Assembly (NCBI GenBank): GCA_944378105.1
Contig: CALWGC010000028.1
Location: 1 to 64,000 of the forward strand
Length of the DNA stretch: 64,000 nt
DNA from: an uncultured Clostridia bacterium
GTDB taxonomy: Bacteria; Bacillota; Clostridia; Lachnospirales; Anaerotignaceae
Reading direction: 5' to 3'
Shown here: one piece after another, positions 3,903 to 11,572 of the stretch
Layout: every line of letters starts with the position of its first letter
Position numbering within the stretch: the stretch's first letter is position 1
Made by a program: the position numbers and the translations under genes
Notes under the pieces: generated by a model
The model's database searches: none
What the model saw: only the letters and a program-made list of their open reading frames with translations
Told to the model about the DNA's origin: nothing

Positions 3903-3945
3903 CTAACGATGCGGAAGTAATTTGAATGAAGGAGGCGGGCGGAAC

Positions 3946-4857
3946 ATGTATTCCGTACCAATGGAAAAATTTGTGGCGGAGTTTCATTTGGAAAACTTGG
4001 TGCCGGATATTTCTCTGGAAGGAAAAGTCCTCACCAGCAATGAAGTCAACCGCCCGGCGTTACAGTTAGCTGGTTTTTTTGACTATTTTGAAAATTACAT
4101 GGTGCAGATTATGGGGCAGGTGGAATATGCCTATTTGGAGCGGTTGGAGCCCATGTTTCGGGAGGATGTGCTGCGAAAACTCTTTAGTTTTGGGTTCCCT
4201 TGTCTCATTATCTGTAATAACATTCCCATGTTTCCAGAGATTGCTGTGTTTGCCAGAGAGTTTCAAGTGCCGGTTTTTCGTACCAATTACCGGGAGTCGG
4301 ACTTTATGGGTGAAATCAGCCGCTGGCTCAAATGTGAAGTGGCTGACCGAATTACCATCCACGGGGTGTTGGTGGAAATTTACGGCGAAGGCATTTTAAT
4401 CATTGGCGATAGTGGCGTGGGCAAAAGCGAAGCGGCGCTGGAACTGATCAAAAGAGGGCACCGGCTGGTGGCCGACGATGCGGTGGAGATCAAAAAGATT
4501 TCCCACGAAACCCTCATCGGCAGCTGTCCGGAACTGATCCGTTATTTTTTGGAACTGCGCGGCATCGGTATCATCGATGTGCGGGAACTGTTTGGCGTAG
4601 GTGCCATCAAGCAAGAACAGACCATTGATATGGTCATTCGTCTGGAACTATGGGACGAACAAAAAGTGTATGATCGCATGGGGCTGGAGGATGAGTATTA
4701 TGAAATCATGGGTAATAAAGTGGTTTGTAACTCCATTCCGGTGCGCCCAGGACGAAATATTGCCATCATTTGCGAATCGGCTGCCATGAATTGTCGCCAA
4801 AAGAAACTGGGGTATAATGCAGCCAAGGTGTTAAGCGAACGAATGAGCAGACGTTAA
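3946..4857 (+). CDS. hprK: HPr kinase/phosphorylase
   Basis: HprK phosphorylates or dephosphorylates the regulatory serine of HPr and Crh, coupling glycolytic state to catabolite repression. At 303 residues it is standard length. The Walker A motif GDSGVGKS is at about 154-161, and the family signature GIGIIDVRELFGVGAI follows near 203. The start at 3946 is chosen because AAGGAGGC lies 9 bases before it; an upstream in-frame ATG at 3922 overlaps this ribosome binding site and has none of its own. It heads a run of genes (ROK kinase, murB, rapZ, whiA, HPr-like) spaced by 15-100 bp, and its likely substrate is encoded at the end of that run. Confidence 0.97.
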   Translation: MYSVPMEKFVAEFHLENLVPDISLEGKVLTSNEVNRPALQLAGFFDYFENYMVQIMGQVEYAYLERLEPMFREDVLRKLFSFGFPCLIICNNIPMFPEIAVFAREFQVPVFRTNYRESDFMGEISRWLKCEVADRITIHGVLVEIYGEGILIIGDSGVGKSEAALELIKRGHRLVADDAVEIKKISHETLIGSCPELIRYFLELRGIGIIDVRELFGVGAIKQEQTIDMVIRLELWDEQKVYDRMGLEDEYYEIMGNKVVCNSIPVRPGRNIAIICESAAMNCRQKKLGYNAAKVLSERMSRR

Positions 4858-4876: not shown

Positions 4877-5839
4877 ATGTATGCAATCGGCGTAAACTTG
4901 GATTTGACCAACATCATAGCCGGTGTTGTGGACGAGTCCGGAACGATCTTATCGAAGGAATCGATTCCGACGCTTAGGTATCGTCCCGTTTCGGAAATCA
5001 TGTCCGACTTGGCGGTGTTGGTAAAGCGAGTGGCTTTTGCAGCCGGAGTGGATTTTGATACAGAAATTGATCATGTGGGCATTGGAACTTATGGTACCAT
5101 TGACCGCAGAAGCGGAACATTGATTTATTCCAGCCATTTTGGATTTCGGGATGTGCCTTTGTTGGCAGAAATCAAAAAGCATATTTCCATTCCTGTTTAT
5201 ATTGAAAACGATGCCAACTGCTATGCGTTGGCAGAAAGCCGTTGGGGTTCCACCAAAGGATATAAAAATTCGGTGATCGTTACGCTGGGGACGGCCATCA
5301 GCGGCGGGATTATGGTGAACAAAGAAGTGTATCATGGGGCGTTTTTTGGCGCCGGGGAACTGGGCCATCATGTGATTGTGATGGACGGGGAAAAATGCGA
5401 CTGTGGCCGCTGTGGCTGCTGGGCGGCTTATGCTTCCTCCACGGCCTTGGTGCGCGACGCCCGCATTGCGGCCATCCGCCATCCAGAAAGCGAAATGTTT
5501 CGGATGGTCAATGGCGACTTGCGCTTGATGAGCTATCGCATTCCCTTTGAGGCGGCCAAAAAAGGCGACGTCTATGCGGCAGAAATTGTGCATATGTTTA
5601 AGAGATATGTGGCTTTGGGCCTGATTAACATTGTCAATATTTTGCAGCCAGATGCCATTGCCATCGGCGGAAAGCTGCGCAAAATTGGCCATGAATTTAT
5701 TGATGACGTGGCGGCGTTGGTGTATGAAAAGGCCTTTGGGCAGCAGGAAAACGCCAATACTAAGGTGATGCTTGCGTCCATGGATTATGATGCGGTCATC
5801 ATTGGGGCAGCCATGTTGCAGGCCTGGAAAGAGGAATAA
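4877..5839 (+). CDS. ROK-family sugar kinase (glucokinase-like)
   Basis: The 320-residue protein has the ROK layout: an N-terminal ATPase strand, the catalytic ENDAN motif near 114-118, the GAGELGH motif near 160 that supplies a zinc-binding His, and the cysteine cluster CDCGRCGC near 175. In most ROK kinases the cluster is followed by Glu (GCxE); here it reads GCWAAYAS, with Ala in that place. A typical activity would be ATP-dependent phosphorylation of glucose or an N-acyl amino sugar; the N-terminus also resembles ROK regulators but there is no helix-turn-helix domain. AGGAGGTG precedes the ATG, 19 bp after hprK. A position between hprK and murB suits a link to sugar metabolism or wall recycling. 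Substrate is not predictable. Confidence 0.88.
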   Translation: MYAIGVNLDLTNIIAGVVDESGTILSKESIPTLRYRPVSEIMSDLAVLVKRVAFAAGVDFDTEIDHVGIGTYGTIDRRSGTLIYSSHFGFRDVPLLAEIKKHISIPVYIENDANCYALAESRWGSTKGYKNSVIVTLGTAISGGIMVNKEVYHGAFFGAGELGHHVIVMDGEKCDCGRCGCWAAYASSTALVRDARIAAIRHPESEMFRMVNGDLRLMSYRIPFEAAKKGDVYAAEIVHMFKRYVALGLINIVNILQPDAIAIGGKLRKIGHEFIDDVAALVYEKAFGQQENANTKVMLASMDYDAVIIGAAMLQAWKEE

Positions 5840-5857: not shown

Positions 5858-6763
5858 GTGACGCTGTTAGAGCGGTTGAAAGAAGCGGCGGGAGAGACGC
5901 AGGTGAAGGTGCAAGAACCCATGAAGCACCATTGCACCTTTCAAACCGGCGGCCCGGCGGATTATTTTGTGGAAGTCTCGTCTTGGCGCGTGCTGTTTAC
6001 GGTACTGGCTTTACTGAAAGAAGAAGGCGTGCCGGTGACGGTGTTGGGCAAAGGCTCCAATGTGCTGGTCAAAGAAGGGGGCATCCGCGGCGCAGTGGTA
6101 ACGCTAGGAGAAGGCTTTCGCCAGGTGAGACGGGACGGCAACTGTCTGGTGGTGGGGGCCGGTGCTGCCTTAAGCCAGATGGCCTTAGCGGCCATGGAAG
6201 CCTCTCTTTTGGGCGTGGCCTTTGCCGGCGGGATTCCCGGCACCTTTGGCGGGGCCGTGGTGATGAATGCCGGGGCCTATGGCGGAGAGCTGAAAGATGT
6301 GCTGAAGGAAGTGACGGTGCTGGACCAAAAGTTACAGGTACAAACTCTGCCGGCTTCGGCACTGGACTTGGGCTACCGCCACAGCAATATCATAGAGAAA
6401 GGATATTTGGTTCTGGAAGGCGTTTTGGAACTGGAAGAAGGGGACAAAGAAGCCATCCGGGCCCAAATGAAAGACTATGCCGCCCGGCGCAGGGAAAAAC
6501 AACCCCTGGAATATGCCAGCGCCGGCAGCACCTTCAAGCGGCCCGAGGGCCACTTTGCAGGCGCGCTCATCGAGCAATGCGGCCTGAAGGGATACCAGGT
6601 GGGCGGTGGCGCCGTTTCCACAAAACATGCCGGTTTTGTGGTCAACTTGGGCCAGGCCAAAAGCGACGATTTGTTGGCCGTCATTGCCCATGTGCAATCG
6701 GTGGTGCTGGAACAAACGGGCGTGGCATTGGAGTGTGAAGTAAAAATCATCGGAGAAGACTAG
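5858..6763 (+). CDS. murB: UDP-N-acetylenolpyruvoylglucosamine reductase
   Basis: MurB reduces the enolpyruvyl group with NADPH and FAD to give UDP-MurNAc in peptidoglycan synthesis. The 301 residues match the type II (short) MurB of Bacillota. Visible are HHCTFQTGGPADYF, the FAD-binding VLGKGSNVLV, GIPGTFGGAVVMNAGAYGGE, the catalytic serine region YASAGSTFKRP and a C-terminal Glu (ALECEVKIIG). The start is GTG with AAGGAGGA 8 bases upstream. Only 18 bp separate it from the ROK gene and 18 bp from rapZ. Confidence 0.97.
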   Translation: MTLLERLKEAAGETQVKVQEPMKHHCTFQTGGPADYFVEVSSWRVLFTVLALLKEEGVPVTVLGKGSNVLVKEGGIRGAVVTLGEGFRQVRRDGNCLVVGAGAALSQMALAAMEASLLGVAFAGGIPGTFGGAVVMNAGAYGGELKDVLKEVTVLDQKLQVQTLPASALDLGYRHSNIIEKGYLVLEGVLELEEGDKEAIRAQMKDYAARRREKQPLEYASAGSTFKRPEGHFAGALIEQCGLKGYQVGGGAVSTKHAGFVVNLGQAKSDDLLAVIAHVQSVVLEQTGVALECEVKIIGED

Positions 6764-6781
6764 GCAAGGCAAAAGGGTGTG

Positions 6782-7657
6782 ATGCAAATGAAATTTGTCA
6801 TTGTAACAGGTATGTCCGGCGCCGGAAAGACGACGGTGTTGAAGTTTTTGGAGGACATCAATTATTTTTGTGCCGATAATTTGCCCCCGGCGTTATTGTT
6901 GAAATTTGCGGAATTGTTTGAACAGGGGCGGGAGATTGACAAAGTGGCACTGGGCATCGACATCCGCGGCGGAAAGTTGTTTGAAGACTTGTTTCATGGC
7001 CTGGATTGTCTCAACGAAAACGGCTATGATTATGAAATTTTGTTCTTGGACGCTTCTGATGAAAGCCTGATTAAACGGTTCAAAGAAACCAGACGCAGCC
7101 ATCCCCTTTCCCGGGGTGGCTCCATTGCCGATGGCATCCAAAAAGAGCGTAAAATTTTGGAAAAAGTGAAAAAGCGGGCCAACTATATCATCGACACCAG
7201 TAATATTTTGACCCGGGAACTGAAAGAAAAGATCAACGATATTTTTGTGCTCAATGAAAACTTTGAAAGTTTGATGATTACGGTGGATTCCTTTGGGTTC
7301 AAGTATGGCATTCCCATCGATTCGGATTTGGTGTTTGATGTGCGGTTTTTGCCAAACCCCTATTATATTCCGGAACTGAAGGAGCAAACGGGAAACGACC
7401 GGCCAGTCAGCGACTATGTGATGAGTTTTGAAGAGAGCCAGATCTTTTTGGATAAGTTGTTGGACTTGCTGGAATTTCTCATTCCGCAGTATATCAAAGA
7501 GGGGAAAAACAGCCTGGTGATCAGCATTGGATGCACGGGAGGCAAGCATCGTTCGGTGACGTTAGCCAATGCGCTTTCCAAGGGGCTGACGGAGAAAGGT
7601 CACTCCGTACGGCTGCGGCATAACGACATCGAAAAGGATGCGAAACAAAAGAAATGA
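6782..7657 (+). CDS. rapZ: RNase adapter / nucleotide-binding protein RapZ (YvcJ family)
   Basis: RapZ-family proteins are GTP/ATP-binding regulators; in Bacillus the homologue is YvcJ. The P-loop GMSGAGKTT is at about 10-18, and the C-terminal domain has [15 protein letters not shown] and the conserved [10 protein letters not shown] segment. Length (291) is normal. A GTG at 6779 is a codon upstream and equally in frame; the ATG is preferred because AAAGG lies at suitable distance. In many Bacillota the next gene is mgfK/yvcK, but here rapZ is followed directly by whiA. Confidence 0.95.
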
Positions 7658-7752
7658 GAAGTCTATAGTAAAAAGAGAATAATCGTAGGGTTTCAACAGA
7701 ATTTGCAAAAGTGTCTAAGAAAAGGAACCGTTTGGTGCCGGAGGTGAAAAAT

Positions 7753-8718
7753 TTGTCGTTTTCTTCTAATGTCAAAAGCGAACTGGCACATCATTTTGGA
7801 GAAGCGCGCCATTGCCAAATTGCCGAAATTGCTGCACTGTTGAATATGTGTGGAGATTATGTGCCTTTGGCGCAAAACTTTTGTGTAAAAATACATACGG
7901 AAAATGTTACCGTGGCCAGAAAGTGCTTTACATTATTGAAAAAAACTTTTAATATAGAATGTGAAATACAAGTCAAACGGAATCAGCAACTGAACAAAAA
8001 ACGGGCGTATACGCTGCTTTTGGACGGTGCAGAAGACGCGGTGCAAAAGGCATTGTTTGCCACAGGGCTGATGACGAAAGACAAAAATGTGGCGCTGGGG
8101 ACACAGATTGATCCGTTGGTGGTTTCTTCTGTTTGTTGTAAACGGGCGTATATCCGGGGCGCGTTTTTGGCCGCAGGTTCGGTCAGCGATCCGGAAAAGA
8201 CGTATCATTTGGAATTTGTAACCAATGACGAAGGATATGCACACCAACTGATTGCTTTGATCAATTCCTTTGAAATGGATGCCAAACTGGTCAAGCGAAA
8301 GGAACAATTTGTGGTCTATTTGAAAGAGGGCGAACAGATTGTGGATTTGCTGAATATCATGGGCGCCCATGTGGCTTTGATGGAAATGGAGAATGTGCGT
8401 ATTTTAAAAGATATGCGCAACAATGTCAACCGCAAGGTCAACTGCGAAACGGCAAACTTGAATAAGACCATTGCGGCCTCGGTCAAGCAACTGGAAGACA
8501 TTCAGTTGTTGCGGCAAACAGTTGGGTTTGATACATTGCCAAAGGCGCTGGAGGAAATTGCGCAGGCCAGAATTGCCTATCCAGAAGCCAGCTTGAAAGA
8601 GTTGGGAGAAATGATGGACCCGCCGGTGGGTAAATCCGGCGTCAATCATCGGCTGCGAAAGATCAGTGAAATGGCAGAAAACTTAAGAGAGGGAATGGTA
8701 AGAAGCGATGATCAGTAA
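7753..8718 (+). CDS. whiA: DNA-binding protein WhiA
   Basis: WhiA combines a LAGLIDADG-like domain with a C-terminal helix-turn-helix and, in Bacillota, affects division and chromosome segregation. A longer frame opens at GTG 7711, but the family N-terminus MSFSS begins at TTG 7753, which has GGAGGTG 6 bases upstream; I therefore use TTG 7753 (321 residues). The sequence shows ELAHHFGEARHCQIAEIAALL, CCKRAYIRGAFLAAGSVSDPEKTYHLEF and the C-terminal SLKELGEMMDPPVGKSGVNHR helix-turn-helix. Its last 11 bases overlap the start of the HPr-like gene, so the pair is surely cotranscribed. Confidence 0.96.
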   Translation: MSFSSNVKSELAHHFGEARHCQIAEIAALLNMCGDYVPLAQNFCVKIHTENVTVARKCFTLLKKTFNIECEIQVKRNQQLNKKRAYTLLLDGAEDAVQKALFATGLMTKDKNVALGTQIDPLVVSSVCCKRAYIRGAFLAAGSVSDPEKTYHLEFVTNDEGYAHQLIALINSFEMDAKLVKRKEQFVVYLKEGEQIVDLLNIMGAHVALMEMENVRILKDMRNNVNRKVNCETANLNKTIAASVKQLEDIQLLRQTVGFDTLPKALEEIAQARIAYPEASLKELGEMMDPPVGKSGVNHRLRKISEMAENLREGMVRSDDQ

Positions 8719-8950
8719 AACAGTTACAGTAAAAAATGCGTTGGATACCAGAGAAGCAGCTTTTTTTGTACAGACTGCCAGCAAATTTAAAAGCAATGTC
8801 AAAATTGCATTGGACGACAAGCTGGTAAATGCCAAAAGCTTGATGTGCCTGATCTCCCTTGGGCTGTCGGACGGCATGCATGTGACCATCCAGGCCGAAG
8901 GCGAAGACGAAGCCCTTGCAGCAGAAGAAGTAGCTGCCGTGTTGGGATAA
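8708..8950 (+). CDS. HPr/Crh-like protein lacking the phosphorylatable histidine
   Basis: The 80 residues fit the HPr fold: the beta strand KTVTVKN, helix 1 with FFVQTASKF, the VNAKSLMCLISLGL segment that carries the regulatory serine (Ser44 here, Ser46 in HPr), and a C-terminal GEDE helix. The active-site loop, GLHARPAA in HPr, reads ALDTREAA. The His aligns with Asp13 and the following Pro with Glu16, so phosphotransfer from enzyme I is not expected. This is the pattern of Bacillus Crh (Gln at that site), which also sits directly after whiA and is an HprK target. The likely role is catabolite signalling through Ser44 phosphorylation. The symbol crh is not assigned because the substitution differs. 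Confidence 0.85.
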   Translation: MISKTVTVKNALDTREAAFFVQTASKFKSNVKIALDDKLVNAKSLMCLISLGLSDGMHVTIQAEGEDEALAAEEVAAVLG

Positions 8951-9092: not shown

Positions 9093-10403
9093 TTAGTCGT
9101 CTGTGCCCAATATGATATAGATATCAATGCCTTCTTGTAACATGGAAGGATCGGTGGTTAAATCGGCGGTGGGGTAGTAGCTGAGCAAATCTAGGCCCAT
9201 GCCGTCTTCCCGCACATAAATACGGGTTTGCGGTGTTTTTTCTCCGTTAAAGGTGGAAATTTCTGGCACCAGATAGCCTTCGGCCTCCAGCATTTCTTGG
9301 TTGGCTTGGGCATAGCCATTGATATAGCCGCCGTTGGCAATTTCGATGGGGTTAGATTTACTGTCCACCGGTGTACCGTCTTCGTTGGTGGGCAAGTTAT
9401 CGCTGTAGAAAAATTCGCGAACCAAAACACGGGTTTCGGCCTCATCGTGGAGGTAGTAGGATACGCCATCCACATACTGGCCTACGCCTGGAATGGTTGC
9501 CGTCTGCATATTGTTGACATTGACGTCCTCCACGTACTGGGCGTATTTCAATGCGTCAGTCAAGGTGATGTCCGTTTCCACATATTCGTAGCCGGTTTTG
9601 ATTAAACCAGGGAGATTGCCCAAAAGCGTTTCGGTGGAAAGGATCTTTTCGGCCAAAGCTCGCATGAAATCTTGCTGTACCTGTACCCGTTGTACGTCCC
9701 CTTGCGGGTATCCGCGAAAGCGCACCAGCTGTTCTGCCTTATCGCCATCCAAGTGCTGCATCCCCTCTTTTAAGTTAATCAAAGGATCCCCTGTATCTCG
9801 CATATCTTTATACATATCTTGGGGCACATAAAAATCCACACCGCCAACCAAATCCACCAGGTCACGGAAGCCTTCAAAATTGACCTTCACATAGTGGTCA
9901 ATTTCAATGCCCAACAAGTCTTCCAACTGTTTGACGGAAAAATAATCGGCTTTTTCCGTACCGGCATAGGCATGGACTTCGTTGATTTTACAGGTGGCAT
10001 TGTAGGGGATATACATATCGTTGGTGTTCAGATAGGAAACCAACTCATCGGTCATGGTGACTCTGGTATCACGGGGAACGGAAAGCAGATTGAGGTTACC
10101 GCTTTTGCTGTCAAAGTGGACCACAAACATGACGTCGGTTCTGGTTTCGTTACCGTCAACGCCAAAGAAAGCCACATTCAAAGAAATATCTTTTTTTACT
10201 AAGGCATCGATGAAGTTCATTTGGCTGCCTTGCTTTACTTCGGTGGATTCAAAGCCAACAATGCGCGAGTAGGCGAACAGGGCGCCGCTGGCGCATACGA
10301 CAAAGGCAAAGACCATACAAAAAACAATTTTGATAAAATGGGCAATGGGTCGAAATGGTTTTTGCTTTTTTTGTTTCTTTGGTTTCGGTTGTTTTTGCTG
10401 CAT
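9093..10403 (-). CDS. LytR-CpsA-Psr family wall-polymer ligase with LytR_C domain
   Basis: LCP enzymes transfer anionic glycopolymers such as teichoic acid from lipid carriers to peptidoglycan on the outer face of the membrane. The 436 residues begin with a Lys-rich cytoplasmic tail and one membrane anchor (about 25-48). The LCP domain shows LLSVPRDTRV, INEVHAYAG, DLVDLVGGVDFYVP, LKEGMQHLDGDKAEQLVRFR and DVQRVQVQQDFM, which include the Arg/Asp residues that hold the polyprenyl phosphate. A C-terminal LytR_C-like domain follows (IANGGYINGYAQANQEML onward, about residues 340-420). It is downstream of, and close to, a second LCP gene on the same strand. Confidence 0.92.
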   Translation of the reverse strand: MQQKQPKPKKQKKQKPFRPIAHFIKIVFCMVFAFVVCASGALFAYSRIVGFESTEVKQGSQMNFIDALVKKDISLNVAFFGVDGNETRTDVMFVVHFDSKSGNLNLLSVPRDTRVTMTDELVSYLNTNDMYIPYNATCKINEVHAYAGTEKADYFSVKQLEDLLGIEIDHYVKVNFEGFRDLVDLVGGVDFYVPQDMYKDMRDTGDPLINLKEGMQHLDGDKAEQLVRFRGYPQGDVQRVQVQQDFMRALAEKILSTETLLGNLPGLIKTGYEYVETDITLTDALKYAQYVEDVNVNNMQTATIPGVGQYVDGVSYYLHDEAETRVLVREFFYSDNLPTNEDGTPVDSKSNPIEIANGGYINGYAQANQEMLEAEGYLVPEISTFNGEKTPQTRIYVREDGMGLDLLSYYPTADLTTDPSMLQEGIDIYIILGTDD

Positions 10404-10453: not shown

Positions 10454-11572
10454 TTACTCCGAAACGGAATGGCTATCGGCGGCCCCTTCGGTTGAGGTTT
10501 CGTCGCTGGATTCCGTGGTGGAGGGTTCTGTTTGTGTGGAGGGGCGAAATACGCTATCGACGATTTCTTTGGTCACTTCTTCGTCCAAAATGACGTAATT
10601 GCCGATTTCTCCAGTGAGGGTATGCATTTCAATTTTGCTGGTATCGATGCGATCCAGGTATTTTAGATAGCTTAAGGCATCCATGATGGTGATATTGGTT
10701 TCCAGATAGGAAAGCATCGTCTTTGTTAAAGACGGCAGATTGTTCAAAATAGTTTCAGTGGAAAGCACTTTTTCGGCCACAGCCATCATAAAGTCATGTT
10801 GTACTTCGATACGCTGAATATCTTGGGTGGCATAATCGTGGCGGAACCGCACCAGCTGTTCGGCCTTTTCGCCGTCCAAATGTTGCATCCCTTCTTTTAA
10901 GTTAATCAATGGGCCGTTGTGATCCCGCATATCCCAATACATATCCATGGGTACATAAAAATCCACGCCGCCAATGGCATCCACCACATAGCGGAAGGTT
11001 TTTGGGGTGAATTTTACATAATAGTCAATGTCAATGCCCAAAATTTCTTCCAGCATAGCCACCGTATATTGGCACCGGGCGCCATCACCGGCATAGGAAT
11101 GGATTTCTGTCAGTTTGCAAAGCCCTTCCACGCCTTTTTTATAGGGGATATAGTTTTCCCGGCCGCGGGCGCGCATATCGGCAAGCATTTCATCGGTCAT
11201 GACCACTTGGCTATCGCGGGGAACAGAAATGATGTCAATTTCGCAGGTCTCATGATTGAAGCAGGCCACAAAGTTGACGTCGCATAGATTGCCACTATCG
11301 TCACAGCCTAGCACTGCGACGTTGGTAAAGGCGCGGTCTTCCTCCTCTTGTTCCGGCGTTACTTCTGCCACAGGCCGCAGGCCTTCCGATGGCTTGGGCG
11401 TGGTGCTTTGGGATGGATCGCGATTGATTCCATAAAAGAGAACGCCGGCAAAAGCAGCAATACTATAACAGAAAACGGCGGCAAAAACAATACAAAAAAA
11501 GCGCCTTCGCAGTCGTTTTTTTGCTGCACGGGCGACAGGTTTTCTTCGCCGGCGGTGAGAAGACGTTGGCAT
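10454..11572 (-). CDS. LytR-CpsA-Psr family wall-polymer ligase
   Basis: A paralogue of the adjacent LCP protein with the same blocks (IISVPRDSQVV, LTEIHSYAGDGA, YVVDAIGGVDFYVPMDM, LKEGMQHLDGEKAEQLVRFR, DIQRIEVQHDFM). It has a basic N-terminal tail, a single membrane anchor near 28-50 and a linker before the LCP domain. It lacks the LytR_C domain and instead ends in a Ser/Thr/Glu-rich tail. The basic tail (RRRRKPVARAAKKRLRRRF) would stay in the cytoplasm. The 50-bp gap to the next LCP gene suggests one transcript from the promoter at 11623-11652. Confidence 0.92.
   Translation of the reverse strand: MPTSSHRRRRKPVARAAKKRLRRRFFCIVFAAVFCYSIAAFAGVLFYGINRDPSQSTTPKPSEGLRPVAEVTPEQEEEDRAFTNVAVLGCDDSGNLCDVNFVACFNHETCEIDIISVPRDSQVVMTDEMLADMRARGRENYIPYKKGVEGLCKLTEIHSYAGDGARCQYTVAMLEEILGIDIDYYVKFTPKTFRYVVDAIGGVDFYVPMDMYWDMRDHNGPLINLKEGMQHLDGEKAEQLVRFRHDYATQDIQRIEVQHDFMMAVAEKVLSTETILNNLPSLTKTMLSYLETNITIMDALSYLKYLDRIDTSKIEMHTLTGEIGNYVILDEEVTKEIVDSVFRPSTQTEPSTTESSDETSTEGAADSHSVSE

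Follow-up and report, generated by a model that had tools for sequence, protein, structure and literature searches.

The HPr-like protein encoded at 8708-8950 of the window (the whole stretch of 64,000 nucleotides analysed here, from an uncultured Clostridia bacterium of the family Anaerotignaceae, order Lachnospirales) carries an aspartate in place of the catalytic histidine of HPr at position 15, and it is probably a regulator of the Crh type, which depends on the kinase/phosphatase HprK and is independent of the phosphotransferase system (PTS). An acid at this position extends across the order, mostly as Glu, with Asp in the Anaerotignaceae, and is thus more widespread than the initial annotation of this DNA had supposed. 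The acidic exchange, together with its order-wide match, suggests at the level of sequence that the protein may carry only the kinase-controlled serine signal and may have left the sugar-uptake relay. The gene and its surroundings in the window are as follows.

3922-4857, + strand: hprK, HPr(Ser) kinase/phosphatase (TIGR00679, 361 bits against a cut-off of 240; PF07475 and PF02603)
4877-5839, + strand: ROK-family protein, glucokinase-like but below the cut-off of the glucokinase model (profile matches)
5858-6763, + strand: murB (profile match)
6779-7657, + strand: rapZ (profile matches)
7711-8718, + strand: whiA (profile matches), whose end overlaps the HPr start by 11 nt
8708-8950, + strand: HPr-like (Crh-type) protein of 80 aa, with Asp at HPr position 15
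8744-8746, + strand: GAT codon of Asp15 (ORF residue 13), placed by the ORF translation and the Crh alignment
8750-8752, + strand: AGA codon of Arg17 (ORF residue 15), unchanged in all 51 homologues of the family
8837-8839, + strand: AGC codon of Ser46 (ORF residue 44), where HprK is expected to act, in the motif NAKSLM
9093-10403 and 10454-11572, - strand: two similar tandem ORFs downstream of the HPr gene (ORF list), which we take, by eye, to resemble LytR-CpsA-Psr wall proteins

The start and the stop of the 8708-8950 ORF were confirmed exactly. Its product is an HPr (PF00381, E 8.4e-22 in the profile search) and scores above the cut-off of the HPr subfamily model TIGR01003, and none of the equivalog models reached its cut-off for this protein in the profile search. 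Alignment to Bacillus subtilis Crh, with identity in 37 of 72 columns, equates ORF residue 13 with HPr residue 15, which is Asp here, Gln in Crh and His in HPr; the loop that reads GLHARPAA in HPr reads ALDTREAA in this protein. AlphaFold2 predicts an HPr fold with high confidence (mean pLDDT 95.3), and the solved structures nearest to the model are HPr proteins, including the His15Asp mutant of Escherichia coli (3ccd, 1cm2, 1cm3). The ORF, both profiles and the Crh alignment bear out the initial reading of an HPr-like protein with Asp for the catalytic His and an intact Ser46 region, as well as its statement that Bacillus Crh has Gln at this residue.

The same annotation had pointed to the position of the gene after whiA and to the presence of hprK in the same cluster, and both hold in the gene run, which reads hprK, ROK-family protein, murB, rapZ, whiA and HPr. 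The true start of hprK may lie downstream of the TTG. In B. subtilis, glmR (yvcK) adjoins whiA, and crh lies downstream of whiA (PMC10714963). The gap from rapZ to whiA in the window is 53 nt (7657-7711), and glmR is absent between these two genes.

The genome to which the window belongs is a draft assembly of 2.04 Mb, 98.5% complete, in which absence stands for undetected by the profiles used. It contains one HprK, one methylglyoxal synthase, MgsA (G000:C33:44775-45131, 154 bits against a cut-off of 146.9) and two HPr genes, the Asp15 one and one with His15. The search for a canonical HPr and for enzyme I that had been proposed for this genome thus returned a second HPr with His, and PF05524, the profile of the enzyme I N-domain, matched nothing in the draft. 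Nor was there any match in the draft genome to the CcpA model, a profile broad enough to recognise other members of the LacI family, those of E. coli included; CcpA-type catabolite repression is therefore unlikely in this organism. Judged by these results, the protein is not a usual PTS carrier, and no partner was detected with which it could act as a CcpA co-repressor. The earlier proposal of a dedicated catabolite-signalling protein consequently stands in one part, that of a dedicated HPr-like protein which belongs to the HprK pathway and is independent of the PTS, and lacks support for this organism in the other, that of CcpA-based signalling, as no LacI/CcpA protein was detected.

The second HPr of this genome (C29:25837-26079; L002:1369-1758) is an orphan flanked by a divergent metG-like gene and a pstS-like gene, both named by eye. 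This orphan His15 HPr (L002, L050, L065) has damaged loops (GIHAAAS, GMHTKIS, GMHASVS) with Arg17 lost, and it retains an NAKSLL serine motif. It could receive the HprK signal as well as the Asp15 protein, or in its place.

The residue 15 of whiA-linked HPr proteins, whose tabulation had also been suggested, was surveyed in the family, in the order and outside it. HPr was found by profile searches in all 58 Anaerotignaceae genomes, 51 of which have it linked to whiA; among the seven others, G011 has an Asp15 protein at a contig end, with no whiA (L095). Residue 15 is Asp in 50 of the 51 whiA-linked proteins (codons GAT 29, GAC 21) and Gly in one (GGA), the sole exception being L056 from the window's own genus. 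This retention, through two codons, means that Asp15 is neither chance nor a sequencing slip. Arg17, Ser46 and Met48 are each kept in 51/51, and the invariant columns of the alignment include those of Asp15, Arg17 and Ser46. Two family genera also hold a third HPr-like kind (L100-L104), in which the match starts at about profile position 19, with no His loop, and in which all five loci have a DAKSI-type serine motif.

In the order Lachnospirales, whiA is present in 144 of the 147 genomes surveyed. A sample of 90 whiA loci included ten with no detected HPr and three with an HPr but no same-strand upstream whiA ORF; the addition of further HPr loci gave 76 whiA-linked proteins from 76 genomes of 16 families other than Anaerotignaceae. 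Residue 15 of these is Glu in 62, Asp in 4, Gly in 3, Ile in 2, Val, Leu and Gln in one each and unaligned in 2, with no His, and Ser46 is kept in 76/76, Met48 in 74/76 and Arg17 in 67/76. Its placement is unsure in the families f4, f7 and f9, because the loop is so changed there, and in f9 the acid is absent in 6 of 9 whiA-linked proteins. HprK was found in 140 of the 147 genomes and is missing in 5 of the 9 HPr-less genomes versus 2 of the 138 HPr-bearing ones, so HPr and HprK tend to disappear together in the order. Counts of this kind are used throughout, since Fisher tests treat related genomes as independent and their p-values are overstated. Four genomes (G072, G090, G104 and G126) have a detected HprK and no HPr of any kind, and they would hold either a diverged HPr or another HprK target.

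To look beyond the order, a named set of 80 loci was picked for likeness to the Asp15 proteins and is biased accordingly. Of these, 71 have whiA upstream, and residue 15 is Glu in 28 and Asp in 12 (Lachnospiraceae and kin), His in 19 (Paenibacillaceae, Paludifilum and some Clostridia) and Gln in 12 (Bacillaceae, Planococcaceae, Brevibacillus and one unplaced Bacillota). Given this bias, whiA loci of the same class outside the order were also sampled, blind to HPr. An HPr follows whiA in 9 of these 48 loci, with His in 3, Gln in 3 and Thr, Tyr and Asn in one each. The last three belong to other Clostridia (L423, L431, L454) and indicate that His has been lost in several ways at this position.

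A tree of WhiA, not of HPr (161 rows, built by a quick method and with several long branches), places all His rows and 12 of the 13 Gln rows behind one starred branch, with no acidic row there; the remaining Gln row, L176, lies on the side of the acidic rows. Twelve changes of the label Asp are required on this tree, and starred branches force no fewer than 8 of them; these label changes imply an exchange between Glu and Asp in which, f9 excepted, the charge was mostly kept.

It could be argued that the acid serves structure only, capping helix 1 or pairing with Arg17, and signals nothing beyond the loss of His, in a protein that would still be a Crh-like target of HprK. The AlphaFold2 model, in which the acid is predicted one residue ahead of helix 1 (residues 14-25), is consistent with such a role, as are the Gln, Thr, Tyr or Asn of other lineages, as if any residue other than His would do. 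Against it, the whiA-linked HPr proteins of the whole order are acidic at position 15 in 116 of 127 cases, versus none of the 9 outside the order, and never have His (0/127), with the acid and Arg17 found together in 109/127. The contrast with the loci outside the order and the repeated exchange of Glu and Asp argue that the charge itself is selected, and do not tell stability from signalling. A purely structural acid is considered unlikely.

A second possibility is that the protein acts as a co-repressor of CcpA, as P-Ser-Crh and P-Ser-HPr do in Bacillus. The Ser46-Ile/Leu47-Met48 region is kept, and LacI-family matches in 28 of the 58 family genomes would allow this role in some relatives. 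As weak evidence, a permissive motif for the contact helix of CcpA matched in 5 of 12 loci of these LacI proteins, and none of the matched stretches looks CcpA-like. No LacI/CcpA match was found in the window's genome or in its two congeners, and none of the 58 family genomes exceeds the CcpA cut-off, which is strict and might miss a clostridial CcpA. In addition, the His15Asp exchange in HPr is expected to disturb CcpA binding, according to a study on Thermoanaerobacterium (PMC3526391). Co-repression with CcpA is thus improbable here.

Asp15 might also be a phospho-acceptor itself, on which enzyme I would make an acyl-phosphate, so that slow phosphotransfer persists. Arg17 is kept, the E. coli His15Asp structures are among those closest to the model, and phosphoryl transfer by the E. 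coli His15Asp HPr was reportedly the subject of a work by Napper et al. (1999). However, enzyme I was detected in only 28 of the 58 family genomes, being undetected in the window's own and in 30 of the family, and Asp is kept in 27 of the 28 enzyme-I-less genomes having the gene as well as in all 23 enzyme-I-bearing ones. The relatives with enzyme I own a separate His15 HPr that adjoins it, and the family has for the most part lost Gly13 and Pro18 of the PTS loop. A phosphorylated Asp15 is accordingly very improbable, and for the window's genome it is set aside because no enzyme I was found there. A decaying relic of PTS HPr, to which the 30 genomes with undetected enzyme I and the loss of Arg17 from the orphan HPr of the window's genus could point, is contradicted by the invariant columns and by an acid equally fixed in genomes with enzyme I, and is scarcely credible.

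In the order, HPr genes adjoining enzyme I were compared with those linked to whiA. The enzyme-I-linked set comprises 78 proteins of 74 order genomes with both sites aligned (one fragment was dropped), and keeps His15 in 78/78, Ser46 in 49/78 and Met48 in 20/78; whiA-linked proteins of the order keep Ser46 in 127/127 and Met48 in 125/127. No enzyme-I-linked HPr with Ser46 was found in 26 of the 74 genomes, for 17 of which the survey included the whiA-linked protein, which has kept Ser46. Among enzyme-I-linked proteins, Ser46 is present in 7/7 of f18 and 4/4 of f20, and in 12 of 13 of the named set, which is mostly from outside the order. A strict rule of one protein for one site was rejected, since 49 of the 78 retain Ser46. 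A tie between the loss of Ser46 and the acid was rejected as well: in f9, 10 of 12 enzyme-I-linked HPr proteins have no Ser46, yet the acid is absent in most whiA-linked ones. We tentatively propose, with somewhat less than even confidence, that the two HPr sites are shared in the order between an enzyme-I-linked HPr (His15, often no Ser46) and a whiA-linked partner (Ser46 always, and a mostly fixed acid that would be a natural mimic of phospho-His), and that the lineage of the window lost the PTS and CcpA but retained this partner and HprK, leaving HprK signalling as a free-standing metabolic switch. In the family, 23 genomes lack a match both to enzyme I and to LacI, and the gene is present in 21 of them.

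With B. subtilis Crh, whose name stands for catabolite repression HPr or carbon-flux-regulating HPr, the protein shares the HPr fold, the lack of His15, the Ser46 motif (NAKS-I/L-M) and a gene directly after whiA, in a genome that also has HprK and MgsA. It differs in having Asp, mostly Glu order-wide, in place of Gln15, in a genome with no detected CcpA or enzyme I, in the presence of hprK in the same cluster, and in an HPr loop further altered at positions 13 and 18. Gln15 is treated here as typical of Bacillus Crh and not as its defining trait. The fold, length and Ser46 region are those of a PTS HPr (PF00381, TIGR01003), from which the protein differs by the lack of His15 and of a detected enzyme I in its genome. 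The lost basic residues at positions 24 and 27 were dropped as an argument, as Bacillus HPr has the same residues there. Engineered His15Asp and His15Glu forms of HPr (E. coli 1CM2, 1CM3 and 3CCD; Streptococcus, Listeria, Thermoanaerobacterium) carry this exchange at position 15 with the HPr fold preserved, but they were made in the laboratory from a PTS protein, whereas here the acid is natural, conserved in the family and Glu across most of the order.

The proposed model is that HprK would, we infer, both write and erase the phosphate at Ser46, while the acid at 15 would replace the phospho-acceptor, barring the protein from the phosphoryl relay of the PTS, and would leave a permanent negative charge beside Arg17 in the former active site. 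Following the example of B. subtilis Crh, the unphosphorylated protein would bind and restrain a metabolic enzyme when glycolytic phosphates are low, and a rise in fructose-1,6-bisphosphate would lead HprK to phosphorylate Ser46, releasing the enzyme. In B. subtilis, unphosphorylated Crh binds and inhibits MgsA, which is released when HprK phosphorylates Crh (PMC9631020, PMC12291648, PMC13130090). MgsA is the best candidate for the partner of the Asp15 protein too, as a possible, if rather doubtful, assignment; it matches in 54 of the 58 family genomes, and its presence is weak evidence because MgsA is widespread.

The charge cannot be the core of Crh function, because Bacillus Crh works with a neutral Gln, and the Gly15 of L056 and the acid-free proteins of f9 mean that the acid is not essential everywhere. 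As to why it is kept, a phosphomimic reading would fit, as engineered HPr His15Asp has been used in that way: in Thermoanaerobacterium saccharolyticum it is regarded as mimicking the phosphorylated form and lifts catabolite repression (PMC3526391). The same source has the serine still phosphorylatable in His15Asp forms, cites the kinetics of His15Asp and His15Glu HPr, and reports a Crh homologue in Thermoanaerobacterium (PMC3526391). A literature search at the level of titles and the openings of abstracts, over a collection with few subscription journals, turned up no description of an acid at position 15 of a naturally occurring Crh or HPr, and within that literature the initial remark that the variant is not commonly described is upheld.

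The acidic-15 proteins would thus be natural counterparts of the laboratory phosphomimic. Normally, a single HPr molecule bears both phosphorylations, on His15 and on Ser46, as opposing marks. If they were split, sugar uptake and HprK signalling would no longer be coupled in the Lachnospiraceae and their kin, a large group of gut bacteria for which the standard HPr-CcpA picture is often assumed. Genomes with HprK and apparently neither PTS nor CcpA are those in which the role of HprK itself can be isolated.
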